This document shows, piece after piece, positions 8,195 through 23,066 of a stretch of DNA of 35,118 nt; the stretch's first letter is position 1, and each line of letters opens with the position of its first letter. The translations under genes were made by a program, and so were the position numbers. This DNA is from a virus, in IMG/VR virus record IMGVR_UViG_3300038738_000005, positions 1 to 35,118 of that record. One strand, 5' to 3'. The notes under the pieces were generated by a model that saw only the letters and a list, made by a program, of their open reading frames with translations, did no database searches and was not told the DNA's origin.

Positions 8195-8947
8195 ATGTTA
8201 TCATCAAGTGATATGGGGATATATGCGATAATAAACAAAGTAAGTGGAAGATACTACATTGGTAGCACTATCCATCTAAAAAGAAGAATAATAGAACATA
8301 AAAGTAAACTGAGAAATGGCAGACATCATAATTTCAAACTACAAGGTGCATATGACAAATATGGAGAAAGTAATTTTTCTTTTGAAGTACTAGAATATGT
8401 AAAATCAGATAATAAGTTGATGGAACGAGAACAATATTGGCTAGACAAAACCAAGGCATGTAAGGTCGGCTATAATTTAAGTTCTGTTGCTACTGGATGG
8501 GGATTGTACGGAGAAGATAATCCAATGTATGGAGTCTCTCCTAGAGAAAGAATGGATGACGAAACTTATAAGAGATGGCTAAAAGCTAGACAAGGGCAAA
8601 ATGCTCCTAAACCAATGCTGGGGAAGAAACACAAGAAGGAATCAATAAAAAAGATGGTTGAGAATAGAAAGTGGTACAAGCATAGCGAATCATGGAAGAA
8701 AAATCACAGCTTAAAAATGACTGGTCATAAAGTAAGCGAGAAACAAAAAGAAAAAATGGCGAAGTTTTGGAATGAAAACATGCACCCAAACAGTAAGAAG
8801 GTAATATGTGTAGACACTGGAGTTATATATAACACAATAACTGATGCCGCTAATGAATTAGGGGTTACAAAACAAGCTATATCCAATGCAATACGAGGCA
8901 AAAGCAAAACTTGCAAGGGGTACAAATGGTCTTATCATGAAGATTAA
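8195..8947 (+). CDS. GIY-YIG homing endonuclease with NUMOD DNA-binding modules (copy 1)
   Basis: This 250-residue free-standing homing endonuclease has the catalytic GIY at 8-10 and YIG at 21-23, with a downstream Arg-rich helix (LKRRIIEHK) and the Glu-containing helix (LMEREQYWLD). After it come NUMOD3-like motifs (GEDNPMYGVS) and a C-terminal NUMOD1/helix-turn-helix module (TITDAANELGVTKQAISNAI, then GYKWS) for site recognition. It has its own promoter, folded leader, ribosome site (AGGAGG) and terminator, so it is a self-contained mobile unit between the terminase and portal genes. No intron is needed to explain the flanks; both neighbours look intact. Confidence 0.9.
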   Translation: MLSSSDMGIYAIINKVSGRYYIGSTIHLKRRIIEHKSKLRNGRHHNFKLQGAYDKYGESNFSFEVLEYVKSDNKLMEREQYWLDKTKACKVGYNLSSVATGWGLYGEDNPMYGVSPRERMDDETYKRWLKARQGQNAPKPMLGKKHKKESIKKMVENRKWYKHSESWKKNHSLKMTGHKVSEKQKEKMAKFWNENMHPNSKKVICVDTGVIYNTITDAANELGVTKQAISNAIRGKSKTCKGYKWSYHED

Positions 8948-13822: not shown

Positions 13823-14239
13823 ATGGCAGGAGCAACAAGAGCATTAGGAACTAAGCTTAAAAAAGGTGAACAAACTATAGGGGGATTAACTTCTATAGGT
13901 GGAATTGAAATTACAGCTGACACAATGGATGTAACTACGCTAGATTCTGACGGTGGTTATAGAGAGTTTATAGGTTCGTTTAAAGATGGGGGAGAAGTTG
14001 CTATCGAAGGATTCTTTGAACCAGATACTACAAGCGGTCAAGTAGCATTGCAAGATTCTTTAGATGCAGGTACTCCAGAAGATTACAAAATTACATTCCC
14101 TACAACTCCTGTTGCTGAATGGAGTTTTAAGGGTGTAGTAACTGGATTTAAGGTTGGAGATGTAGATGTTGATGGAACAATAGGTTTTGGAGCAACAATC
14201 AAGGTTTCAGGGAAACCAGTATTGACTATTACGCCTTAG
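13823..14239 (+). CDS. Major tail protein
   Basis: This 138-residue tail-tube subunit begins MAGATRALGTKLKKGEQTIG and has the beta-rich pattern IGGIEITADTMDVTTLDSDG, GGEVAIEGFF, WSFKGVVTGF and a Gly/Asp-rich C-terminus typical of phage tail tube proteins. It has a strong ribosome site (AGAAAGGAGA) and is followed at once by an intrinsic terminator, so it can be the last gene of an abundant transcript, as expected for the most-needed tail component. Confidence 0.88.
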   Translation: MAGATRALGTKLKKGEQTIGGLTSIGGIEITADTMDVTTLDSDGGYREFIGSFKDGGEVAIEGFFEPDTTSGQVALQDSLDAGTPEDYKITFPTTPVAEWSFKGVVTGFKVGDVDVDGTIGFGATIKVSGKPVLTITP

Positions 14240-14268
14240 GCTAAGTTAATTCTTAGCCTTTTTATTTT
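14238..14268 (+). terminator. Intrinsic terminator after major tail gene
   Basis: AGGCTAAG and CTTAGCCT form a perfect 8-bp stem with a 6-nt loop, followed by TTTTTATTTTTA. It overlaps the last bases of the major tail gene. Tail chaperone genes downstream need partial read-through or another promoter. Confidence 0.88.
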
Positions 14269-14287
14269 TATATTAGGAGTGAATAAA

Positions 14288-14455
14288 ATGGCTAATTTAG
14301 AAGTAAAAGTTAGAATAAGTGATTTAGACTTATGGACAGATTTAATAGATTATTTAAAAGATGTTATTTTGCATGACAAAAGAATGCCAGGAGATTTGGC
14401 GAACGAAATGCAAGATAAAATAGGAAGTATTATAGAGGAGGCAAGAAAAAGATGA
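14288..14455 (+). CDS. Small hypothetical protein before tail chaperones (55 aa)
   Basis: This open frame gives 55 residues (MANLEVKVRISDLDLWTDLI, then a charged helix ending IIEEARKR). It starts after TTAGGAGTG and its stop overlaps the next start as ATGA. I do not recognise a family. The pattern of a short beta strand followed by helices resembles small chaperone-like phage proteins. Tight coupling to the gpG-like gene makes a role in tail assembly plausible. Confidence 0.65.
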   Translation: MANLEVKVRISDLDLWTDLIDYLKDVILHDKRMPGDLANEMQDKIGSIIEEARKR

Positions 14456-14754
14456 GTTATACACCAATTGAATTGGATAAGGTTAGAAACTTTAGATATG
14501 GAATGAGGGCTATAAGCTTAATTGAAAAGAAATTTAAGAAACCTGTAAGTAAAATAGATATGGATAGTTTAACTATGGAGGAAACAGCAACTATTATTTG
14601 GGCAGGTTTGCAACATGAGGATAGAGACTTAACACCAGATAAGGTTATGGATCTAATAGATGAACATTCAAACTTACCTACTGTTATGAAAGCCATGAAT
14701 GAAGCTTTTCAAGGAGCATTTGGAGTAGGAGAAATTGAAGAAAAAAACGAGTAG
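14452..14754 (+). CDS. Tail assembly chaperone (gpG-like)
   Basis: This 100-residue helical protein occupies the lambda gpG position between the tail tube and tape measure genes. It contains NFRYGMRAISLIEKKF and MEETATIIWAGLQHED, the latter being typical of Firmicute tail chaperones. It coats the tape measure protein before tube assembly. Near its end the heptamer A AAA AAC lies in frame, three codons before TAG. The -1 frame continues for 111 residues, giving the gpGT-type fusion of about 210 residues. Confidence 0.85.
   Translation: MSYTPIELDKVRNFRYGMRAISLIEKKFKKPVSKIDMDSLTMEETATIIWAGLQHEDRDLTPDKVMDLIDEHSNLPTVMKAMNEAFQGAFGVGEIEEKNE
14742..14748 (+). other. Programmed -1 ribosomal frameshift site
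   Basis: The heptamer AAAAAAC is positioned as A AAA AAC relative to the upstream frame, with TAG only two codons later. After a one-base slip the frame CGA GTA GAA GGT stays open to 15083. Frameshifting at this place between tail tube and tape measure genes is widely conserved in long-tailed phages. Confidence 0.85.
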
Positions 14755-15083
14755 AAGGTAGCGAGGGAGAAGAATTTTCTATAGTAGGGGCTATGGAACT
14801 TGCTACCTTAATTGGCATAAGTATATCTGAATTTTGGGACATTACTCCCTTTGAACTAAATTTATTAGCAAAAGGTTATGCTAAGCGAAAAGAAGCAGAG
14901 CAGAAAGAAAGCATTTATCAAGCATATTTAATCAGTAGATGGGTATGGCAGAAGAAAATTGACATAGAAAAAATATTAGAATTTAAAAAAGAGAAAAAGA
15001 AGATGACAGATGAAGAAATGTTAGAACAAGTAAAAGTGTTAAATAGAATGCTTGGTGGAAGTGTGAATACTTGTAATAATTAG
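14748..15083 (+). CDS. Tail assembly chaperone extension (gpT-like, by -1 frameshift)
   Basis: This is the C-terminal domain reached by the -1 slip at 14742-14748. It has no good ribosome site of its own; an internal ATG at 14793 lacks one. It contains LIGISISEFWDITPFELNLL and GYAKRKEAEQKESIYQAYLI, a common signature of the second chaperone frame in Firmicute siphophages (a Phe-Trp-Asp motif, then a long helix carrying a Trp-Trp pair). The fusion protein binds the tape measure and recruits tail tube subunits. It is followed by a 7-bp hairpin (15084-15107) and the HIRAN gene. Confidence 0.8.
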   Translation, partial: RVEGSEGEEFSIVGAMELATLIGISISEFWDITPFELNLLAKGYAKRKEAEQKESIYQAYLISRWVWQKKIDIEKILEFKKEKKKMTDEEMLEQVKVLNRMLGGSVNTCNN

Positions 15084-15121
15084 CTATATCTTGTAAAATA
15101 TAGCTGAAAGGGGGTATTCAC

Positions 15122-15547
15122 TTGAAAGTAATATTATTTATTTTATTTCTACCTATCACCTTACCTTATTACATTATAAAAAAGCTGATAGAACTATTTA
15201 GGAGAAAGAATATAGAACTGCCAGACGATATTAGACAGTTTAGAATATATGTAGCAGGAGCACAGTATAAAAATGATGATGGAAGTGATAGACAGCAGTA
15301 TATTAAAAAGTGTAAACCTGGAGAGGAATTATTACTTGTTCCAGCACCCAGTAAATATGACGAATATGGGATTCAAATTTACAGGAAAACTGGAGAATGT
15401 ATAGGCTGGGTACCAGCAAAATACTCTTATGAGTTTACAACTGAAATAGAACGAGGTGTCAACATTAGAGCATTTTTCCATAGCAGGATAAAACCAAATA
15501 AAGAATATGATTTTTATGGTGGTAGAGTAACAATCATAAAGTATTAA
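15122..15547 (+). CDS. Membrane-anchored HIRAN-domain protein
   Basis: This 141-residue protein starts at TTG after GAAAGGGGG. Residues 3-20 form one hydrophobic segment (ILFILFLPITLPYYIIKKL), so it is probably membrane bound. From about residue 40 it resembles a HIRAN domain: FRIYVAGAQY, then CKPGEELLLVPAPSKYDEYG, IQIYRKTGE and IGWVPAKYS. HIRAN domains in helicases and stand-alone proteins bind DNA ends or 3' termini. A HIRAN protein is not part of tail assembly, so this is an accessory insertion between the chaperone and tape measure genes. Two terminators follow it. Confidence 0.7.
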   Translation: MKVILFILFLPITLPYYIIKKLIELFRRKNIELPDDIRQFRIYVAGAQYKNDDGSDRQQYIKKCKPGEELLLVPAPSKYDEYGIQIYRKTGECIGWVPAKYSYEFTTEIERGVNIRAFFHSRIKPNKEYDFYGGRVTIIKY

Positions 15548-15554
15548 TTAATTT

Positions 15555-15587
15555 AAAGCACTTACTGATAATGTAGGTGCTTTTATT
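15555..15587 (+). terminator. Intrinsic terminator after HIRAN gene
   Basis: AAAGCACTTAC pairs with GTAGGTGCTTT (11 bp with one G-U) around a 7-nt loop, then TTTATTATG. The sequence AGGTGCTTTTATTATGC is shared exactly with the terminator after the first homing endonuclease. Confidence 0.8.
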
Positions 15588-15610
15588 ATGCCTAAAAGGC
15601 AGGTGAGAAT

Positions 15611-15637
15611 ATGGCAAAGAGTAAGCCTACTACTTAG
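15611..15637 (+). other. Vestigial tape-measure start (MAKS), truncated
   Basis: After AGGTGAGAAT there is ATG GCA AAG AGT, encoding Met-Ala-Lys-Ser, which soon ends at TAG (15635-15637). The interrupted tape measure frame at 16994 also begins Met-Ala-Lys-Ser with different codons. The simplest reading is that this was the original tape-measure start before the cassette behind it was inserted. Confidence 0.35.
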
Positions 15638-15646
15638 CAGGCTTTT
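15623..15646 (+). terminator. Second hairpin-terminator facing the accessory cassette
   Basis: AAGCCT pairs with AGGCTT across a 10-nt loop and is followed by TTTCG. It overlaps the 3' end of the reverse-strand ribbon-helix-helix gene and would stop rightward transcripts before they run antisense through that gene. Confidence 0.5.
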
Positions 15647-15791
15647 CGTACTCTTTCAAAACTAATTCTATACCCCTATCTAGTAGTTTAGACATTGGTA
15701 TCATGGTTTTTTCTGATAATTGCTTTAATTTTTCAAATAATTCTTTATCTACTGCATTACCTATTCTCACTCTGTTTTTTAAGTCAGTCAT
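15630..15791 (-). CDS. Ribbon-helix-helix (Arc/CopG-type) regulator, reverse strand
   Basis: This 53-residue protein starts at 15791 with a near-perfect ribosome site (AGGAGGTG seven bases ahead). The beta strand NRVRIGNAVD, then KELFEKLKQLSEKTM and the helix IPMSKLLDRGIELVLKEYE, match the RHH fold of Arc, CopG and antitoxin-type repressors (IPMSKLLDRGIE is the usual turn and second helix). It is the only reverse-strand gene in the late region and has its own consensus promoter pointing away from the next gene. It probably represses both divergent promoters by binding the direct repeats between them. Confidence 0.82.
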   Translation of the reverse strand: MTDLKNRVRIGNAVDKELFEKLKQLSEKTMIPMSKLLDRGIELVLKEYEKPAK

Positions 15792-15814
15792 AGCAACACC
15801 TCCTAATTTATTAT

Positions 15815-15866
15815 ATTATACTACTTATTAAATATACTTGCAACTTATAGCAACTTATAGTATAAT
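15815..15866. promoter_or_regulatory. Divergent promoters sharing one palindromic -35 hexamer
   Basis: TTGCAA at 15838-15843 is its own reverse complement. Rightward, 17 bases later, is TATAAT (15861-15866). Leftward, 17 bases later on the other strand, is TATAAT (15820-15815). Both promoters therefore have consensus -10 boxes and ideal spacing from the same -35. Transcription can probably fire only one way at a time. Confidence 0.8.
15840..15859 (+). repeat. Tandem direct repeat, candidate RHH operator
   Basis: GCAACTTATA occurs twice head to tail at 15840-15849 and 15850-15859, one helical turn apart. It lies in the spacer of the rightward promoter and touches the shared -35. Ribbon-helix-helix dimers often bind adjacent short repeats with this spacing. 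Confidence 0.55.
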
Positions 15867-15886
15867 ATAATAAAGGAGATGATAGT

Positions 15887-16105
15887 ATGAAGATAAAACA
15901 AATTATACAAGCACCACCAAAATTAATGATTCTTTGTAATGATTTTGATGAAGATGGTTCTATGGTGGGTAGTATACAACATGTTATTGCATACGCATTG
16001 ATGGATAATGGCGAAGTACTACCATTGATTGAAGGTGAGAAGGGTAATTTAGAACCTATTAACAAAAAATTGTTCATAAGAACTTGGTTTGAGGGTGAAG
16101 AATAG
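15887..16105 (+). CDS. Small acidic cassette protein (72 aa)
   Basis: This 72-residue protein is driven by the rightward promoter, with AAAGGAGATG ahead of its ATG. It begins MKIKQIIQAPPKLMILCNDF and continues with an acidic patch (DEDG), a central hydrophobic stretch (HVIAYALM) and an acidic C-terminus (FEGEE). I do not recognise the family. Its stop overlaps the start of the GIY-YIG endonuclease by one base (TAGTG), so the two are cotranslated. It could be an inhibitor, accessory or partner of the endonuclease or regulator, but that is a guess. Confidence 0.7.
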   Translation: MKIKQIIQAPPKLMILCNDFDEDGSMVGSIQHVIAYALMDNGEVLPLIEGEKGNLEPINKKLFIRTWFEGEE

Positions 16106-16953
16106 TGGAATATAGCAAAGAATTAATTGAAAATAAAATGATAGTATATTCAATAGAAAACAAAATAAATGGCAAAAAATATATAGGAATAACAACAAAC
16201 TCATTTGCTGAAAGATACCCACATGGTATAAAAAATCATCATAACCCACATTTACGAAAATCTATAGCAAAATATGGAGAAGAAAATTTTGAAGTAGTTG
16301 TATTAGAGAAAAATGTAAAAGATATGAAAACTCTTTGTGAGTTAGAAATGAAGTATATAGAAAAGTATGATACTTGCAATAAAGAAAAAGGTTATAATAA
16401 GTCTCTAGGTGGTTTAGGGGTAAGGCAAATAGAAAGAAGTCCAGAGCATTGTAGGAATCTTAGCAAAGCTAAAAAAGGGATAAATCCATTGAAAAACTAT
16501 ACACCTGAGCAAATGGCAAGAAGAAACGCAAAATTAAGTAGAGCTTTAAGAGGGAAAAACAATCCTAGATACGGAATGACTAAAGATAAGCTTAAACCTG
16601 AAACAATAGAAAAATTGAGACAAGCTGCATTAGGTAAAAATAACCCTATGTACGGTAAGAATATTAAAGATTATATGACAGAAGAAGCTTATGAAGAATG
16701 GAAGTTGAAAGTTGCTAGGCATGGTAGGATGAATGGAAGGGCCAGAAAAACTATAGTTGTTTATAAAGGTCAAGAATATGTATTTGATTATTGTAGACAA
16801 GCTATTAATTATTTCAAAGAGTTTAAAGGTGAACCCATAACTGTAAATTGGATATATAGAGGAATTAATCCTAACTATCAAGATAGGTTTCAGTTCTTTG
16901 GATATGAAGAAGATTATAAAAAATACAAGGAAAATAAAGCACTAGCTATTTAA
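16105..16953 (+). CDS. GIY-YIG homing endonuclease with NUMOD3 repeats (copy 2)
   Basis: This 282-residue endonuclease starts at GTG, coupled to the previous stop, with GAGGGTG upstream. The first catalytic strand is divergent (IVYSIENK, in place of GIY) and the second is KYIGITTN. The conserved Glu is in the helix LCELEMKYIEKYD. NUMOD3-like units follow (LRGKNNPRYGM and LGKNNPMYGK), then a C-terminal region ending NYQDRFQFFGYEE. It lies directly before the tape measure gene, which carries a stop codon near its start. It shares its fold with copy 1, but the two differ outside the core. Confidence 0.88.
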   Translation: MEYSKELIENKMIVYSIENKINGKKYIGITTNSFAERYPHGIKNHHNPHLRKSIAKYGEENFEVVVLEKNVKDMKTLCELEMKYIEKYDTCNKEKGYNKSLGGLGVRQIERSPEHCRNLSKAKKGINPLKNYTPEQMARRNAKLSRALRGKNNPRYGMTKDKLKPETIEKLRQAALGKNNPMYGKNIKDYMTEEAYEEWKLKVARHGRMNGRARKTIVVYKGQEYVFDYCRQAINYFKEFKGEPITVNWIYRGINPNYQDRFQFFGYEEDYKKYKENKALAI

Positions 16954-16970
16954 AATAGCTGGTGTTTTTA
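16939..16970 (+). terminator. Intrinsic terminator at the end of the second endonuclease
   Basis: A stem of about 12 bp (GCACTAGCTATTT with AAATAGCTGGTGT) contains a single T-G pair and is followed by TTTTTATTTTA. It overlaps the last codons of the endonuclease gene. Tape measure transcription must read through or begin elsewhere. Confidence 0.8.
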
Positions 16971-16993
16971 TTTTAAGGAGGTGGTGCTGTACT

Positions 16994-17059
16994 ATGGCCA
17001 AATCAAATTTCATAGTACGGTGACGTGGCGGTGCAGATTTCTCTGGAATCCAGAGAGCA
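16994..17059 (+). other. Interrupted 5' end of the tape measure gene (in-frame TGA)
   Basis: ATG 16994 has AAGGAGGTGG 10 to 19 bases upstream and encodes MAKSNFIVR, then TGA at 17021-17023, then RGGADFSGIQRA directly in frame with the long tape measure frame. RGGADFS-like sequence is typical of this protein's N-terminus in Firmicute phages. A six-base insertion (CGGTGA) or a CGA-to-TGA change would explain it. The next base after TGA is C, a context associated with leaky stops. Confidence 0.7.
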
Positions 17060-19942
17060 ATGCAGAAAACCCAAAAACAAATGAATACTTTTCAAACAAC
17101 TATAAATAAAAACATGGGTATAGTAGGCAAAAGTATAAAATTAGCACTTGGGTATGTATCGGTGAAAGCTATTACTGGGTTTGTAAAAGCTACTACTGCT
17201 ATAGCAAGTGATTTAACAGAGGTACAAAACGTTGTTGATGTAACCTTTGGAAGCATGGCTAAAGATATAAATGATTTTGCAAAAATATCTATAGAACAGT
17301 TTGGACTTAGTGAATTATCTGCAAAGAAGTTCTCATCCACCATGGGCGCAATGCTTAAATCTTCCGGAATAGCAGGAGAAGCAGTAAGAGATATGTCTAT
17401 AGATTTAACAAAACTATCAGCTGATATGGCTAGTTTCTATAACTTAGACAATGAAGAAGCCTTTAGAAAAATTATGAGTGGTATGTCAGGCATGACTCAA
17501 CCTTTGAAAGAACTAGGAATCAATATGAACATTGCTAACCTAGAAGCTTTTGCACTATCGCAAGGTATCAGAAAAACATGGCAACAGATGTCACAAGCTG
17601 AACAGACCATGATTAGATACCAATACTTGCTAAGCGTTACAGGAGATGCTCAGGGCGATTTTGCTAGGAATAGCCAAACATGGGCAAACCAGACTAGAAT
17701 ACTTGCACAGCAATTTGAAGGTTTAAAAGCTACAATCGGACAAGGTTTTATTAATGTGTTGTTGCCTGTGATAAAAGCGTTAAACACATTAATTAAATAC
17801 ATTCAGATTGCTGCAGAATATTTTAAAGCATTTACAGCCATGATATTTGGAAAGGCTTCAGTAGGCGGTAAAGGTGCCAATATTGGTGGAATACTAAATG
17901 ATGTAGGAGCAGGAGCAGGAGGAATAGGAGAAACAGCAGATGCCCTTGAAGATGTTGAGGAAGGCTTAGACGGAGTTGGCGGAGCAGGAAAGAAGGCAAG
18001 CAAAAACTTAAAAGGAGTTTTAGCCGACTTTGACGAAGTGCATACGCTAGCGAATAAAACCGCAGACACTGGCGGTGGTGCAGGTGGCATTGGTGGTGTA
18101 GGTGCTGTAGACTTTGGAGAATTAGCCACTGGAGAAATTGACTTTACACCAAACATGGAAAAGCTGGAGAAATTTCAGCAAGCGTGGAAAAAAACAAAAC
18201 AGCTACTTAACGAAGGTTTTAATGTAGGATTTGCAAGTGCTAACTTAGACTCACTAAGAGCGGCTATTGACAAATTAAAAGAGTCATTTAATAACCTTTT
18301 TAGCGACGGACAAATAGCAGAGGCTTTTAACAACATGATAGGTAAATGGGTACAAAGTCTTGGACAGATTGTAGGAGCTATAGCATCTATTGCTACTACT
18401 ATTGCTACAAATTTAATAGGCGGAATTGCTGAATATATTGAAACAAATAAACAATTTATTAAAGACAGGATTTTAAGTATTTTTAATTTAAGTGGCGAAA
18501 TTGCAGAAAAAATTGCAAACATATTTACTGATTTGGCTGATATATTTAGTGTATTTGCAGGAGAGACTGCTCAGAAAGTCACATCAAACATAATAGGAAT
18601 ATTTACTAATGCATTTTTAGGACTAACAGAGCTTGTTATGAGGGTTATTAATAGTATTTTAGGTGTAATCGAAAAGGTTATTAATGACAATAAAGAAAAG
18701 ATTAAAACAGCAATTGAAAATACGCTTAAGCCAATAGAAAAGGTAACTCAAACCATAGAAGATTTTATTGTAAATACTTTTGAAAAGATTTTTGAAGTTT
18801 ATGATAAATATATTCAGCCAGCATTTGATAATATTGCCGAAGGCTTAAGTAAATTAGTAGGCACAATTTTGGATGCTTATAATAATTATATAGCACCAGT
18901 TCTTAGTGAATGGGCTGAGAAATTTGATAAGTTATTCAAAGAACACATACAACCAATGGTTAATAGTGCTATTGAGTTCTTTGGCAAATTGGCTTTGGCG
19001 ATTAGTGAGTTATTCAATAATGTAATCGTGCCTGTTGCACAGGAAGTAATTGAAAGGATAGGACCGGCAGTAAAGGTTATCCTTCAATCAATAGGTGATG
19101 TAGTAGAGGTAGTGCTTAAAATAATTGTGAATGCAATAAAAATGGTGTTTGATAGTCTTAGTGGATTGATAGAATTTTTAACAGCTGTATTCAAAGGTGA
19201 TTGGGAAAGTGCCTGGAAGTCAATTCAAGCAAGTTATGAAAACTTTAAAGAATCAGCAGGTAAAATCTCAGGAGCAATTAAAGATTTTTTCAGCAATTTA
19301 GCAGATCACGTAGGTGGATTCTTTAAAGAAAGGTTTAGTCAGGCTGTAGAAGAAAGCAGGGCTAAGTTTGCTTCCTTTAAAGAAAATATATTAACCCAAA
19401 TAACTGGTATAAAAACTAAATTTACAGAAATTGCATCATATCTCAGTGGTGCGTTTAAATCAGCTTGGACAAATACATGGGATGCTATTGGCAGGAAGGT
19501 GAATGATATAAGCACGAGCATAAAGAACGGAGTAAGAAATGCTATCAATGGCATAATAGATCATATTAATGGGCTTATCGGTAAACTCAATAGATTAAGC
19601 TTTAAAATCCCGGATTTTTTAGGCGGTGGAACAGTAGGATTTAGTATTCCAACAATTCCTAAACTTGCAAAAGGCGGCATTATAGATAGACCTACAACAG
19701 CACTGATAGGAGAAGCAGGGCCAGAAATGGTGGTGCCTTTGGAAAATACATCTTTTGTAGACAAGCTTGCAAGTGCATTAGGAAATGCTGTAATGAGTGC
19801 TATGCAAGTGTCTATGACTACAGGTAGTAGTGGCGGACAAATTGGAAATCCAATACTTGAAATTGATGGAGTTCAATTTGGCAGAATAATATATCCGCAC
19901 ATAGAAAGAGAACGCCAAAGATTGGGGGTTGACCTAGCATGA
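17060..19942 (+). CDS. Tail tape measure protein
   Basis: The uninterrupted frame gives 960 residues; with the upstream part (from 16994) it would be 982 codons around a TGA. It sets tail length and guides DNA entry. The N-terminal region is helical (QKTQKQMNTFQTTINKNMGI). A conserved phage tape-measure block follows (QNVVDVTFGSMAKDINDFAK, LSELSAKKFSSTMGAMLKS and DNEEAFRKIMSGMSGM). Then come hydrophobic Gly-rich stretches, and the C-terminal tail includes LAKGGIIDRPTTALIGEAGP. Its stop overlaps the distal tail gene by 4 bases. The open start ATG 17060 lacks a good ribosome site, so production may depend on reading the TGA. Confidence 0.9.
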   Translation: MQKTQKQMNTFQTTINKNMGIVGKSIKLALGYVSVKAITGFVKATTAIASDLTEVQNVVDVTFGSMAKDINDFAKISIEQFGLSELSAKKFSSTMGAMLKSSGIAGEAVRDMSIDLTKLSADMASFYNLDNEEAFRKIMSGMSGMTQPLKELGINMNIANLEAFALSQGIRKTWQQMSQAEQTMIRYQYLLSVTGDAQGDFARNSQTWANQTRILAQQFEGLKATIGQGFINVLLPVIKALNTLIKYIQIAAEYFKAFTAMIFGKASVGGKGANIGGILNDVGAGAGGIGETADALEDVEEGLDGVGGAGKKASKNLKGVLADFDEVHTLANKTADTGGGAGGIGGVGAVDFGELATGEIDFTPNMEKLEKFQQAWKKTKQLLNEGFNVGFASANLDSLRAAIDKLKESFNNLFSDGQIAEAFNNMIGKWVQSLGQIVGAIASIATTIATNLIGGIAEYIETNKQFIKDRILSIFNLSGEIAEKIANIFTDLADIFSVFAGETAQKVTSNIIGIFTNAFLGLTELVMRVINSILGVIEKVINDNKEKIKTAIENTLKPIEKVTQTIEDFIVNTFEKIFEVYDKYIQPAFDNIAEGLSKLVGTILDAYNNYIAPVLSEWAEKFDKLFKEHIQPMVNSAIEFFGKLALAISELFNNVIVPVAQEVIERIGPAVKVILQSIGDVVEVVLKIIVNAIKMVFDSLSGLIEFLTAVFKGDWESAWKSIQASYENFKESAGKISGAIKDFFSNLADHVGGFFKERFSQAVEESRAKFASFKENILTQITGIKTKFTEIASYLSGAFKSAWTNTWDAIGRKVNDISTSIKNGVRNAINGIIDHINGLIGKLNRLSFKIPDFLGGGTVGFSIPTIPKLAKGGIIDRPTTALIGEAGPEMVVPLENTSFVDKLASALGNAVMSAMQVSMTTGSSGGQIGNPILEIDGVQFGRIIYPHIERERQRLGVDLA

Positions 19943-20280
19943 TAAGTATTAGTGGAACAACAGTAAAAACTCCTAATGAATTTACTCCTAGTCGTATGGA
20001 TATTGTAGAGGCAGAGAGAAATAGTAAGGGAACAATGACAATAGAGCATATAGCAACTAAGTGGAAATTAACATTAAAGTGGAATTATCTCACACAAGAA
20101 GAAATGAGTAGTATTATAAGTGCTATCAATCCTATCACGTTCAGCGTTTCTTTTCCTGCTCCTACAGGGGGTACAGTAAGTGGCACTTTTTATAAAGGCG
20201 ATATAAACACGCCAATGCTAAGTTATACAAATGGCGTAGCTAAGTGGAAAGACTTTAGCATCAACTTAATTGAGGTGTAG
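19939..20280 (+). CDS. Distal tail protein (Dit-like)
   Basis: This 113-residue beta-rich protein starts as ATG overlapping the tape measure stop (ATGATAAG). It contains SISGTTVKTPNEFTPSRMDI, a central RNSKGTMTIEHIATKWKL, and FSVSFPAPTGGTVSG. Small Dit-type proteins form the hexameric hub between the tail tube and tip, and this one sits right after the tape measure, as in Firmicute siphophages. At 113 residues it lacks the larger C-terminal domain of classical Dit. Confidence 0.72.
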   Translation: MISISGTTVKTPNEFTPSRMDIVEAERNSKGTMTIEHIATKWKLTLKWNYLTQEEMSSIISAINPITFSVSFPAPTGGTVSGTFYKGDINTPMLSYTNGVAKWKDFSINLIEV

Positions 20281-20284
20281 GCCT

Positions 20285-21571
20285 ATGCTGAATTATACAG
20301 GAAATTTTAATACAGAAATCAAAAATACTCTAGGCAGACGAGTGGATATAGAGATTAAATTTATCAAGAATGATACAGAATACACACTTACAAGCGATGA
20401 TTTACAAGAGTTTAGCTATCAAGCACAGACAGAAAAGGAGCTTGGTGGAGTAGAGAAGAAGGTAGCGAACATACGTTTTATGAATAATGAGAATACTTCA
20501 CTACTACAAAAAGGGGATGGAATAACGATTTATTTTCTTACATCCCCTACATCCAAGTGTAAATTTTGTAAGCTTTATATTAAAGAGCGAAAAACAGACA
20601 CAAAAGGCTTAATAATCAGTGTAGAAGCAGTTGACCTTATAACTTATCTAAATGACAAGGATTTACCTATTATCCCATTACAGAAAGACATATTTTTAAG
20701 TCAGTACATGCAATCACTATTTAATGCTATAGGAGTAAATCATTCAATTTCAGGGGCGATCACTAACCCTAAGTTGAGGTTTGCTTATCTTAAGAGTGCT
20801 AAAATTTTATCTACCCTTACAGAAATGGCAGTGGCATCTAATAGTATCATTAGGCATAAGGTGACTAAAGACAAGAGATTTGTGACGATACCCGTTCAAA
20901 TTCCTACCTTTTTTAATGAGGTAAAAACAACCTATGATGATATTATAAATATCAAGCCATTTAAGGCAAGTGAGCCAGTAGATGAGTTGACTTTTAATGA
21001 TCTATTAAAGGACATAAGCATAACAGATAGTGATAACAACACTTATGACCAAGTGCTGATACCAATATTTTATCCTAATGACCGACAATACAACAAATTA
21101 GGCAGTCTTGCAAGCACAATCCCCGGTGGAGTTAGTAATTACAGTATTGGCAATATTAGCTTTAAAAATCTAAGCATCCCACAACTGGTTCACTTTGACA
21201 ATGAAGTGCGCATCTATGATTTTGACTTTTCAGGAGACAAGTGCAACATTAAAGTAAATAACCCGAATTTGTTTGCTATAGACTGCAACATTGATATTTT
21301 TGGCTCAGATTTAAGTACGCTTACAGTTGTACAAAATAGCAGCGACGAGAGAGTTAAAATTATTAATAATCAATACATTCAAAGCCCAGCAGTTTATGAT
21401 AAACAGATTTATTACAGTAAGGACATTGACATTAAGTATAGAGGGAATCCTCTTTATGAGGTAGGCGACACTGTAATTGTAGATGGAAATACTGTGCTTA
21501 TAAGGGAACACTCCTTAACATACAACGGTGCTTTATCAGGCTCAATTAAGGGGGTGGTTGTTAATGAGTAG
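20285..21571 (+). CDS. Tail hub / tail-associated protein
   Basis: This 428-residue beta-rich protein is in the usual Tal/hub position. Features are YTGNFNTEIKNTLGRRVDIE at the start, a mid region with FCKLYIKERKTDTKGLIISV, and a C-terminal YEVGDTVIVDGNTVLIREH strand pair typical of baseplate hub proteins. I chose ATG 20285 with GAGGTG eight bases ahead; an upstream start at 20270 lies inside the Dit gene. It overlaps the tail tip gene by 8 bases. No protease motif was seen. Confidence 0.72.
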   Translation: MLNYTGNFNTEIKNTLGRRVDIEIKFIKNDTEYTLTSDDLQEFSYQAQTEKELGGVEKKVANIRFMNNENTSLLQKGDGITIYFLTSPTSKCKFCKLYIKERKTDTKGLIISVEAVDLITYLNDKDLPIIPLQKDIFLSQYMQSLFNAIGVNHSISGAITNPKLRFAYLKSAKILSTLTEMAVASNSIIRHKVTKDKRFVTIPVQIPTFFNEVKTTYDDIINIKPFKASEPVDELTFNDLLKDISITDSDNNTYDQVLIPIFYPNDRQYNKLGSLASTIPGGVSNYSIGNISFKNLSIPQLVHFDNEVRIYDFDFSGDKCNIKVNNPNLFAIDCNIDIFGSDLSTLTVVQNSSDERVKIINNQYIQSPAVYDKQIYYSKDIDIKYRGNPLYEVGDTVIVDGNTVLIREHSLTYNGALSGSIKGVVVNE

Positions 21572-23066
21572 AATAATTACAAATGGTGCAGGCACAAGCC
21601 TTGATGGATGGATAGCCTACAATACATCTATAGTAGATAGTTGCTTTAATATCCAAAACGGGCACATAAAACAGGTAGTAGGAATAAGCAGAGAGAAGCA
21701 ATACAGGCAGTATAAGCTTGCTTACAACTGCGTAGAATTAAGAGATAGACACAGTTATTTTTTGCTTACTACTACAAAACCCCCTTTAAAAAAAGACGCT
21801 TACTTTGTGCCAATTTTGTTTGATGGAGAACAAGTGCTTATCTTTGATGTAGACGAAAGTATTACAGATTTGACCTTTGAAGTTGTAGGAGACCTTAAAA
21901 TTAAGGATATTGATTTGCGAACGAATGAAGGAATAAGCGAAAATACAAAACAAGAAATTGGCATGTGGCAAGAAGTAACAGACGGACTAGGCAACATATT
22001 AGCATCTAAGCTTGTAGGAGCATTAGACAGTTCTGTGGCTAATATTATTAATGCCAATAACACTATGATAATTGAGGATGGTCTTTTTATAAGAAACGCA
22101 TCTACAGATGAAGCTTCTACATGGGCAATGCAGATTACTTCTGCTGGGTGGATGATTGCAGATGGAAAGAATCCTGATGGCACTTGGAATTGGAGGACTG
22201 CAGCAACAGGGAAAGGGTTAGTAGCAGATGCAATTACAACTGGCAAGCTATCTGCAATAGATCTTGAATCTGTAAACATTTTGGCATCTACAATCTTAGG
22301 TGCATTAATTCAAGGTGGGAGAATCGAAATTGGAGATAATGCATCCAAGACCTTTATTGTAATTGATGGAAATGAAAAATCTTTTGGAATAAAAATGAAA
22401 AACACCAATAATGAACTAAAAAGCATTATTGACCTGTGGGGAGATACTGGCGATGGTGGAAATCTTGTAATCTATAGCAATTCAGAGAATGCTGATGGCA
22501 GTTTTAAAAAAGCATTTCAAGTAAGTGCATACACAGAAACTAATGACAATGGGTGCATTATACACACATATGGAGATGTCGAATGGTATGCGAATCTGAA
22601 AAGAATTTTATTTAATTCCGTTGATAAATTTGAGTTTTTTGGGCCAACACATATTGACACAGGCGGAGATATTTCTGGGAACAACATATATGCTAGTGGA
22701 GACTTAGGCTGTGGGGGCACAAAAACAGCTATAGTTCAGACTAAACATTATGGGAAAAGAAAACTATACTGTGAAGAAGCTGACAAGTTGTATTTTAGTA
22801 CAAAAGGCATAGCCGAAACAGCGATTGAAGGCAATGAATGCAAGTATATTCTAAGGCTTGATGATATATTCTTTGAGACAATCGAGCCTAATAGCGTATA
22901 CCCTTACATTATCAATACAACACCATACGCAGATGCAAGAGTGTGGGTGAGCAGTGTATATGATAAATACATTATTTTTAAAAGTGACAAGCCAACAAGA
23001 TTTGCGTACAGTTTGCAAGCGATAAGAAAAGGATATGCAAACACTTACTTAGAGGAGGTGGAATAA
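21564..23066 (+). CDS. Tail tip / tail fibre protein
   Basis: This 500-residue protein starts MSRIITNGAGTSLDGWIAYN with GGGGGTGG upstream. A middle region rich in beta helix-like repeats (SVNILASTILGALIQGGRIE, with Asn/Gly turns) resembles the phage tail endopeptidase or fibre C-terminal repeats that trimerise. The C-terminal part contains FSTKGIAETAIEGNECKYIL and a Tyr-rich end. It probably contacts the host surface. Its stop overlaps the SGNH-fibre start by one base (TAATGG). Confidence 0.7.
   Translation: MSRIITNGAGTSLDGWIAYNTSIVDSCFNIQNGHIKQVVGISREKQYRQYKLAYNCVELRDRHSYFLLTTTKPPLKKDAYFVPILFDGEQVLIFDVDESITDLTFEVVGDLKIKDIDLRTNEGISENTKQEIGMWQEVTDGLGNILASKLVGALDSSVANIINANNTMIIEDGLFIRNASTDEASTWAMQITSAGWMIADGKNPDGTWNWRTAATGKGLVADAITTGKLSAIDLESVNILASTILGALIQGGRIEIGDNASKTFIVIDGNEKSFGIKMKNTNNELKSIIDLWGDTGDGGNLVIYSNSENADGSFKKAFQVSAYTETNDNGCIIHTYGDVEWYANLKRILFNSVDKFEFFGPTHIDTGGDISGNNIYASGDLGCGGTKTAIVQTKHYGKRKLYCEEADKLYFSTKGIAETAIEGNECKYILRLDDIFFETIEPNSVYPYIINTTPYADARVWVSSVYDKYIIFKSDKPTRFAYSLQAIRKGYANTYLEEVE

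Follow-up and report, generated by a model that had tools for sequence, protein, structure and literature searches.

The locus described here raises the question of how a tape-measure protein (TMP) can be produced from a gene whose reading frame is closed by a stop codon almost at its beginning. In the window, i.e. the whole 35,118-nucleotide stretch of viral DNA that was analysed (IMG/VR record IMGVR_UViG_3300038738_000005), the frame opened by ATG 16994 meets TGA at codon 10 (17021–17023), and the region reads MAKSNFIVR-TGA-RGGADFSGIQ. Past the stop, the TMP continues without a change of frame (RGGADFS), and no ordinary start is met before ATG 17060. The relatives read MARSNFIVRGGADFS at this place and are free of stops. 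The TMP 5' mini-frame (16994–17023, plus strand) consists of ATG GCC AAA TCA AAT TTC ATA GTA CGG TGA (MAKSNFIVR-stop). The micro-interruption CGG-TGA-CGT (17018–17026, plus strand), which adds six bases compared with the relatives, would be made up of a supposed take-off codon, a stop and a landing codon, and it is followed in frame by the 971 codons of the TMP remainder (17027–19942, plus strand; phrog_1535, E = 9.5e-142). From the sequences compared here, we consider it fairly likely that the locus is a self-regulated mobile homing endonuclease gene (HEG) cassette, whose own version of the opening codons of the target gene is micro-interrupted and recoded.

The genes before the TMP are arranged as follows. 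A HIRAN-domain gene with an N-terminal membrane segment (15122–15547) occupies a variable slot between the tail chaperones and the TMP, and relatives have other small membrane or DUF4352 proteins in this slot. Then comes a TMP leader with a hairpin and a ribosome site, together with the start ATG GCA AAG AGT (15611–15622), which we regard as the abandoned original (15555–15622, plus strand); ATGGCAAAGAGT at 15611 gives MAKSKPTT and then a stop, and the left edge of the cassette lies at about 15622/15623. The cassette itself includes an RHH (Arc-like) regulator of 53 aa on the minus strand (15630–15791; PF12651, E = 2.3e-19; phrog_3180), divergent promoters (15815–15866) with two copies of the repeat CAACTTATAG (15841–15860, likely the operator), a 72-aa acidic protein that is accessory and not core (15887–16105, plus strand), and a GIY-YIG homing endonuclease of 282 aa with NUMOD3 repeats (16105–16953, plus strand; PF01541, PF07460, phrog_314). 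The TAG of the 72-aa ORF overlaps the GTG start of the GIY-YIG/NUMOD3 ORF at 16105. At the right end there is a second TMP leader (16936–16984, plus strand), with a terminator-like stem/hairpin and the ribosome site AAGGAGGTGG, which aligns with the TMP leader of L001 and L002. It is followed by an RNA hairpin around the TMP start codon (16986–17021, plus strand), in which 16986–16997 pairs with 17010–17021 and leaves a loop of 12 nt. In the alignment of the HEG family, Y26, G28, R37, E81 and N98 are invariant. The gene thus has the conserved catalytic residues and the NUMOD DNA-binding modules of a free-standing GIY-YIG homing endonuclease, and the locus shows a site in a conserved gene, empty sites in relatives and co-converted flanks, as expected of such genes. 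No family or phage match was obtained for the 72-aa protein, of which only a 13-codon tail was seen elsewhere, in L007. A group I intron was ruled out as the source of the interruption, since no Rfam match to a group I intron core was found in the window. A DNA search of the phage collection with positions 14000–18000 of the window gave a sole match, which was short and lay inside another homing endonuclease gene, and a search of 207 Clostridia genomes with the HEG alignment found nothing.

An earlier note on this DNA had listed the reverse-strand RHH gene, the divergent promoters, the 72-aa ORF and the GIY-YIG ORF, all of which are present, and had described a MAKS start at 15611 that soon stops and is repeated with other codons at ATG 16994, which is also correct. 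Its proposal that the cassette was inserted at the first TMP codons and brought a replacement leader and start is supported by matches to the left copy in two relatives. The TMP leader of the HEG-less L213, AGCACTTAC..GTAGGTGCTTTTTT..AGGGAGGTGAAAATATGGCAAAAAGT (L213 1449–1519), closely matches the left copy of the window (15555–15622), and therefore it is the left copy that represents the abandoned original start. In L006, the left copy is even better than that of the window, AAAGGAGGTGGATATATGGCTAAGAGT|AAGCCC, and is joined to the same cassette end AAGCCYACTA. The two matches together indicate that the cassette entered at codons 4–5, bringing its own leader and start. Empty sites were found as well: L001, L002 and L213 run directly from the chaperone/accessory genes into the TMP, which in the empty-site relatives begins with MAKS or MARS, and L001 is 93.5% identical to the window over 16931–22500. 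Other parts of that proposal have to be modified. The supposed terminator after the HEG (16936–16974) does have a stem, but it is homologous to the TMP leader hairpin of HEG-less relatives. Whether the three genes travel together was a point to be checked, and this applies to the RHH gene and the HEG in 5/6 full-HEG lineages (they occur together in the window, L003, L004/L005, L006 and L089, with RHH scraps in L187), but not to the 72-aa gene, which is part of the unit solely in the window. Finally, the replacement start is indeed supplied by the cassette, but it is not an open one, and it is broken by TGA in every cassette found.

The self-regulation of the cassette is suggested by its promoters. 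The RHH and HEG promoters have one common palindromic –35 box, TTGCAA (15838–15843), and the spacers to TATAAT are 17 bp on the right side in 5/5 loci and exactly or nearly so on the left side. A change of the RHH recognition strand (RVRIG or RIRIG versus RTPIS) goes along with a change of the spacer sequence, and the sequence types of the shared promoter are CTTATAGCAACTTATAG versus CTACAAGTAGTTAATGG. From the shared geometry and the joint change, we infer an RHH operator over the promoter of the RHH gene itself. The RHH protein probably represses both its own and the HEG promoter via the shared –35 region.

The break is not peculiar to the window. All close relatives of the HEG lie directly before a TMP, and every such TMP is broken. 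The breaks fall into classes A (CGG TGA CGT, +6 bases; window, L003, L178), B (CGG TGAATAA CGT, +10; L089), C (CGC TGAAAAC CGT, +10; L006), D (CGG TGAT CGG, +7; L187) and E (GCC T GAC, +1; L004/L209, L005/L221, L007, L215, L216, L230), and each insert of 1, 6, 7 or 10 bases brings an immediate TGA. Pattern scans independent of the HEG added L178, L187, L215, L216 and L230, and among viral contigs it points to a broken TMP only where this HEG or its scraps are present. NFIVR followed by TGA occurred in 0/391 Clostridia genomes, and a wider scan for the class E pattern gave no further TMPs. All 12 broken-TMP records are metagenomic contigs, and as they stem from different assemblies, the recurrence of the breaks rules out an assembly error. 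Genome-wide recoding of UGA was ruled out as well, since 5/14 main genes of the window end in TGA and most breaks shift the frame. In Paenibacillus phage PG1 (L307 40–110), the TMP start MAVVKT-stop overlaps a second ATG (TAATG), with no HEG nearby. It was not counted as a further case, given the lack of an HEG and another split later in the TMP, which may come from sequencing errors.

The HEG, the leader, the start-codon hairpin and the stop insert of 1–10 bases co-occur, and in one near-isogenic pair they were swapped as a block. The TMP is broken in 7/7 loci with a complete HEG and in 4/4 with HEG scraps, whereas it is intact in 19/19 HEG-less loci with the chaperone–TMP junction in view. 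Eleven TMP loci were counted as having the HEG or scraps; L230 starts too near the TMP for the presence of the HEG to be judged. The association of HEG and break (Fisher p = 2e-8, and 2e-6 with near-duplicates merged) should be taken as only indicative in both calculations because of the relatedness of the loci. The block evidence comes from L089, a single contig, which matches L213 at 96.3% identity in the chaperones and at 97.7% in 3.9 kb of the TMP and beyond, and differs from it between these parts. The identity resumes at L089 3638, the first base past the landing codon, so the HEG, leader, hairpin and break were swapped as one block. By comparing the C-terminal type of the HEG with the insert class, only a loose match was found. 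In the class E phages, the region ahead of the cassette contains a reverse-strand ORF of some 165 aa (L215 3137–3634, minus strand, and the same region of L221).

The break is retained after loss of the HEG in L178, L187 and L215. In L187 and L215 the HEG was deleted and the break kept, and in L178 only the last 28 codons of the HEG remain, the rest having given way to an IscB/IS200 element with HEARO RNA. That element (L178 6227–8149), which occupies the place of most of the GIY-YIG cassette upstream of the broken TMP, carries HEARO/omega RNA, an IscB gene and an IS200 TnpA. Such persistence bears on the idea that endonuclease cutting destroyed the TMP and left the breaks as scars, and that the contigs belong to defective phages. 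It is true that the inserts of classes A–D all follow the CG of codon 9, a single fixed position, and show a 2-base repeat, which might result if a 2-base stagger were repaired imprecisely. On the other hand, broken starts outlast the HEG, mosaic pairs show continued recombination of the lineages, and among the 12 records, which come from different assemblies, there are at least five types of insert, all followed by a long frame and accompanied by a hairpin that co-varies. We therefore regard scars of this kind as highly improbable.

The frame after the break is open for 781–971 codons in most loci; in L187 it is 158 codons long because a second HEG interrupts the gene, and L230 has an additional frame error. 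If nothing were recoded, the first nine codons could be a leader peptide, and the TMP could restart later or at an unusual start, with loss of about 20 N-terminal residues. ATG 17060 of the window and equivalent ATGs 8–11 codons past the break in L003, L178, L221, L215 and L216 would suit a restart, as would the GTG codons that class E has in the TMP frame just before the stop. A precedent may be found in Corndog, Firecracker and YungJamal, in which an HEG-like HNH gene lies between the tail chaperone and tmp genes (PMC4351075). Peptides of Corndog-type TMPs were found upstream of any start codon, and the authors suggested an ACG start or bypass (PMC4351075). These phages support the notion that the TMP tolerates unusual starts behind endonuclease genes. 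Unlike in the window, the Corndog-type nuclease is HNH, and the ACG of Firecracker stands directly behind the HNH stop, without a MAKS-like mini-frame. However, there is no ATG, GTG or TTG for 29 codons past the break in L089, 46 in L006, 29 in L187 and 40 in L007, GGADFS is intact in all loci, and a restart does not explain why matched Arg codons flank the gap. A restart without recoding thus seems unlikely.

These Arg codons are among the reasons for which bypassing is considered. In classes A–D, an Arg codon CGN flanks the gap on both sides, and the gaps differ in length and sequence (TGA, TGAATAA, TGAAAAC, TGAT), so one hop would yield exactly R-GGADFS. A stop directly after the take-off codon and a matching landing codon (CGG/CGC..CGT/CGG) are found in classes A–D; class E has the stop without the matching landing codon. 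CGG is a rare codon in the window phage (3/4044 codons). We hypothesize that the HEG cuts the intact, conserved TMP 5' end in co-infecting phages, and that the cassette is copied in during repair along with the altered 5' end, which would be poorly cut by the HEG. In classes A–D, peptidyl-tRNA-Arg would leave CGG or CGC at the UGA and re-pair with the CGN codon that follows at a distance of 6, 7 or 10 bases, and the product would be MAKSNFIVR-GGADFS (MSKS in L006, MRTKS in L187). For class E, the break would be passed by a +1 shift at GCC-UGA-C. The micro-insert would thus alter the HEG target and be tolerated as ribosomes hop or shift past it. A low efficiency of recoding could be tolerated because the TMP is needed in few copies. 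Several features speak against this mechanism: a CCG anticodon moving from CGG to CGT would find only two of three bases matched, the gaps are too short for an A-site stem-loop, nine codons are too short for a nascent peptide of the T4 gene 60 type, and GCC re-pairs poorly in the +1 frame of class E.

Recoding could also occur without hopping, by read-through of UGA in class A, which is in frame, or by an ordinary +1 shift in classes C, D and E. A +1 shift at the UGA would lead into the TMP frame in classes C and D, and class E looks like the RF2 site, with UGA-C and an upstream purine-rich, ribosome-site-like stretch. In L089, however, UGA in frame 0 is accompanied by UAA in the TMP (+1) frame directly before the landing CGT, so neither read-through nor a single +1 shift suffices and a hop is needed. 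The retained Arg codons on both sides are again unexplained, and this way of passing the break is judged quite unlikely.

A hairpin around the start codon accompanies the breaks. In all broken TMPs, a stem of 9–13 bp is formed by the 5' UTR next to the start and the last codons ahead of the break; the start codon sits in the stem and the 3' arm ends near the stop (in the window, at the stop codon). Intact TMPs have no such hairpin, and the mean energy is –11.5 kcal/mol in broken versus –4.3 kcal/mol in 20 intact loci. The stem sequences vary between the classes and yet co-vary, with two-sided changes at 5/11 pairs among the 7 distinct sequences that share one register; the L221 hairpin is in another register. 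The covariation score was reached by 0/500 shuffles, and sliding the partner destroys it, leaving a sharp peak at the true register. The z-scores of single-sequence folds are modest except in L187 and L015. By re-forming behind the ribosome, the hairpin may push it forward, as is thought for the 5' stem-loop of T4 gene 60. Since the start codon lies within it, the hairpin might simply limit initiation; a rival role would be the silencing of the TMP on transcripts from the strong HEG promoter.

To our knowledge, T4 gene 60 is nearly the sole phage translational bypass tied to a homing endonuclease. Its insert is thought to protect from cleavage by the adjacent mobA endonuclease (PMC5009743, PMC3014915, PMC11194080), and its 5' stem-loop folds behind the ribosome (PMC11194080). 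As in gene 60/mobA, an HEG lies beside a gene with an insert absent from HEG-less relatives, a stop stands just past the take-off codon, and a matching landing codon and an upstream stem-loop are present. In contrast, the nuclease is GIY-YIG here and HNH in T4, the gaps are 1–7 bases and not 50, the break lies 9–13 codons in, the gap stem-loop and the KKYK nascent-peptide signal of T4 are absent, the hairpin encloses the start codon, and one target has several alternative breaks. The TMP cassette is therefore not counted as a member of the gene 60/mobA system, as it is without the gap stem-loop and the long nascent peptide and has a nuclease of another family. Class A resembles the synthetic E. 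coli stop-hops (Weiss 1987, as cited in PMC5009743), in which a stop lies between codons for the same amino acid and nine bases give one residue, but it is a natural sequence; no natural in-frame stop-hop was known to the 2016 review (PMC5009743). Class E is similar to the +1 frameshift of RF2 (prfB) in its NNN-UGA-C and upstream purine-rich stretch (AGGAGGU, AGGGGU), and differs in its P-site GCC instead of the slippery CUU of RF2, and in belonging to an HEG-linked phage structural gene. The byp elements of Magnusiomyces mitochondria are likewise many short inserts that are skipped in translation; unlike the TMP cassette they are mitochondrial, and the account in PMC5009743 describes no linked HEG.

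A second case came from blindly scanning 160 loci, with 179 HEG ends, for a ribosome site, a mini-frame, a stop and a long resuming frame without a start. Only the TMP cassettes and L015 were flagged, and a relaxed scan added only weak or false matches, of which L112–L114 were rejected as ordinary overlapping genes. In L015 (4010–5885), a single contig, a different GIY-YIG gene overlaps the start of a cyanophage-type gene. The break reads ATGCTAAAG...CATATGGAGCAT CTT TA|GAA GAT, where two extra bases create UAG, and the frame resumes as EDLIFNEGVDGTR with no start for 26 codons. The rejoined protein is matched by 316 phage records, and C48C1, the sole matching record that was opened, is uninterrupted and without the hairpin (–6.0 kcal/mol). 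The 3' arm of the L015 start-codon hairpin runs into the CUU before the UAG (z –2.5, 3/200 shuffles as good). Judged by its sequence, L015 is an independent case of the same design, with another HEG and an unrelated gene.

Taken with the TMP cassettes, L015 suggests, with about an even chance, that phage HEGs have repeatedly been paired with a stop-bearing micro-insert, as an immunity mark, and a start-codon hairpin enabling a hop or shift, in at least two unrelated targets (the TMP and the cyanophage-type gene of L015), and that CGG-TGA-CGT of class A would be the first natural stop-hop. There are at least five differently built breaks in the TMP and one in an unrelated gene, each by a GIY-YIG endonuclease and with a start-codon hairpin. 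If these breaks are recoded, bypassing would be a recurrent means by which selfish endonucleases tag their own allele and shield it, and late-start annotations of phage genes behind endonuclease genes would need re-reading. It would, if true, add a new case in which a selfish gene and a translation trick go together, and the inserts of 1–10 added bases are small enough for base-by-base dissection in reporters.

Other GIY-YIG genes were also observed in these phages. The one that lies inside the TMP coding region of L187 (3680–4720) is of a different kind and has intron-like flanks, with no Rfam match at the gathering score. The window has a second, distant GIY-YIG endonuclease at 8195–8947, between the terminase and portal genes.
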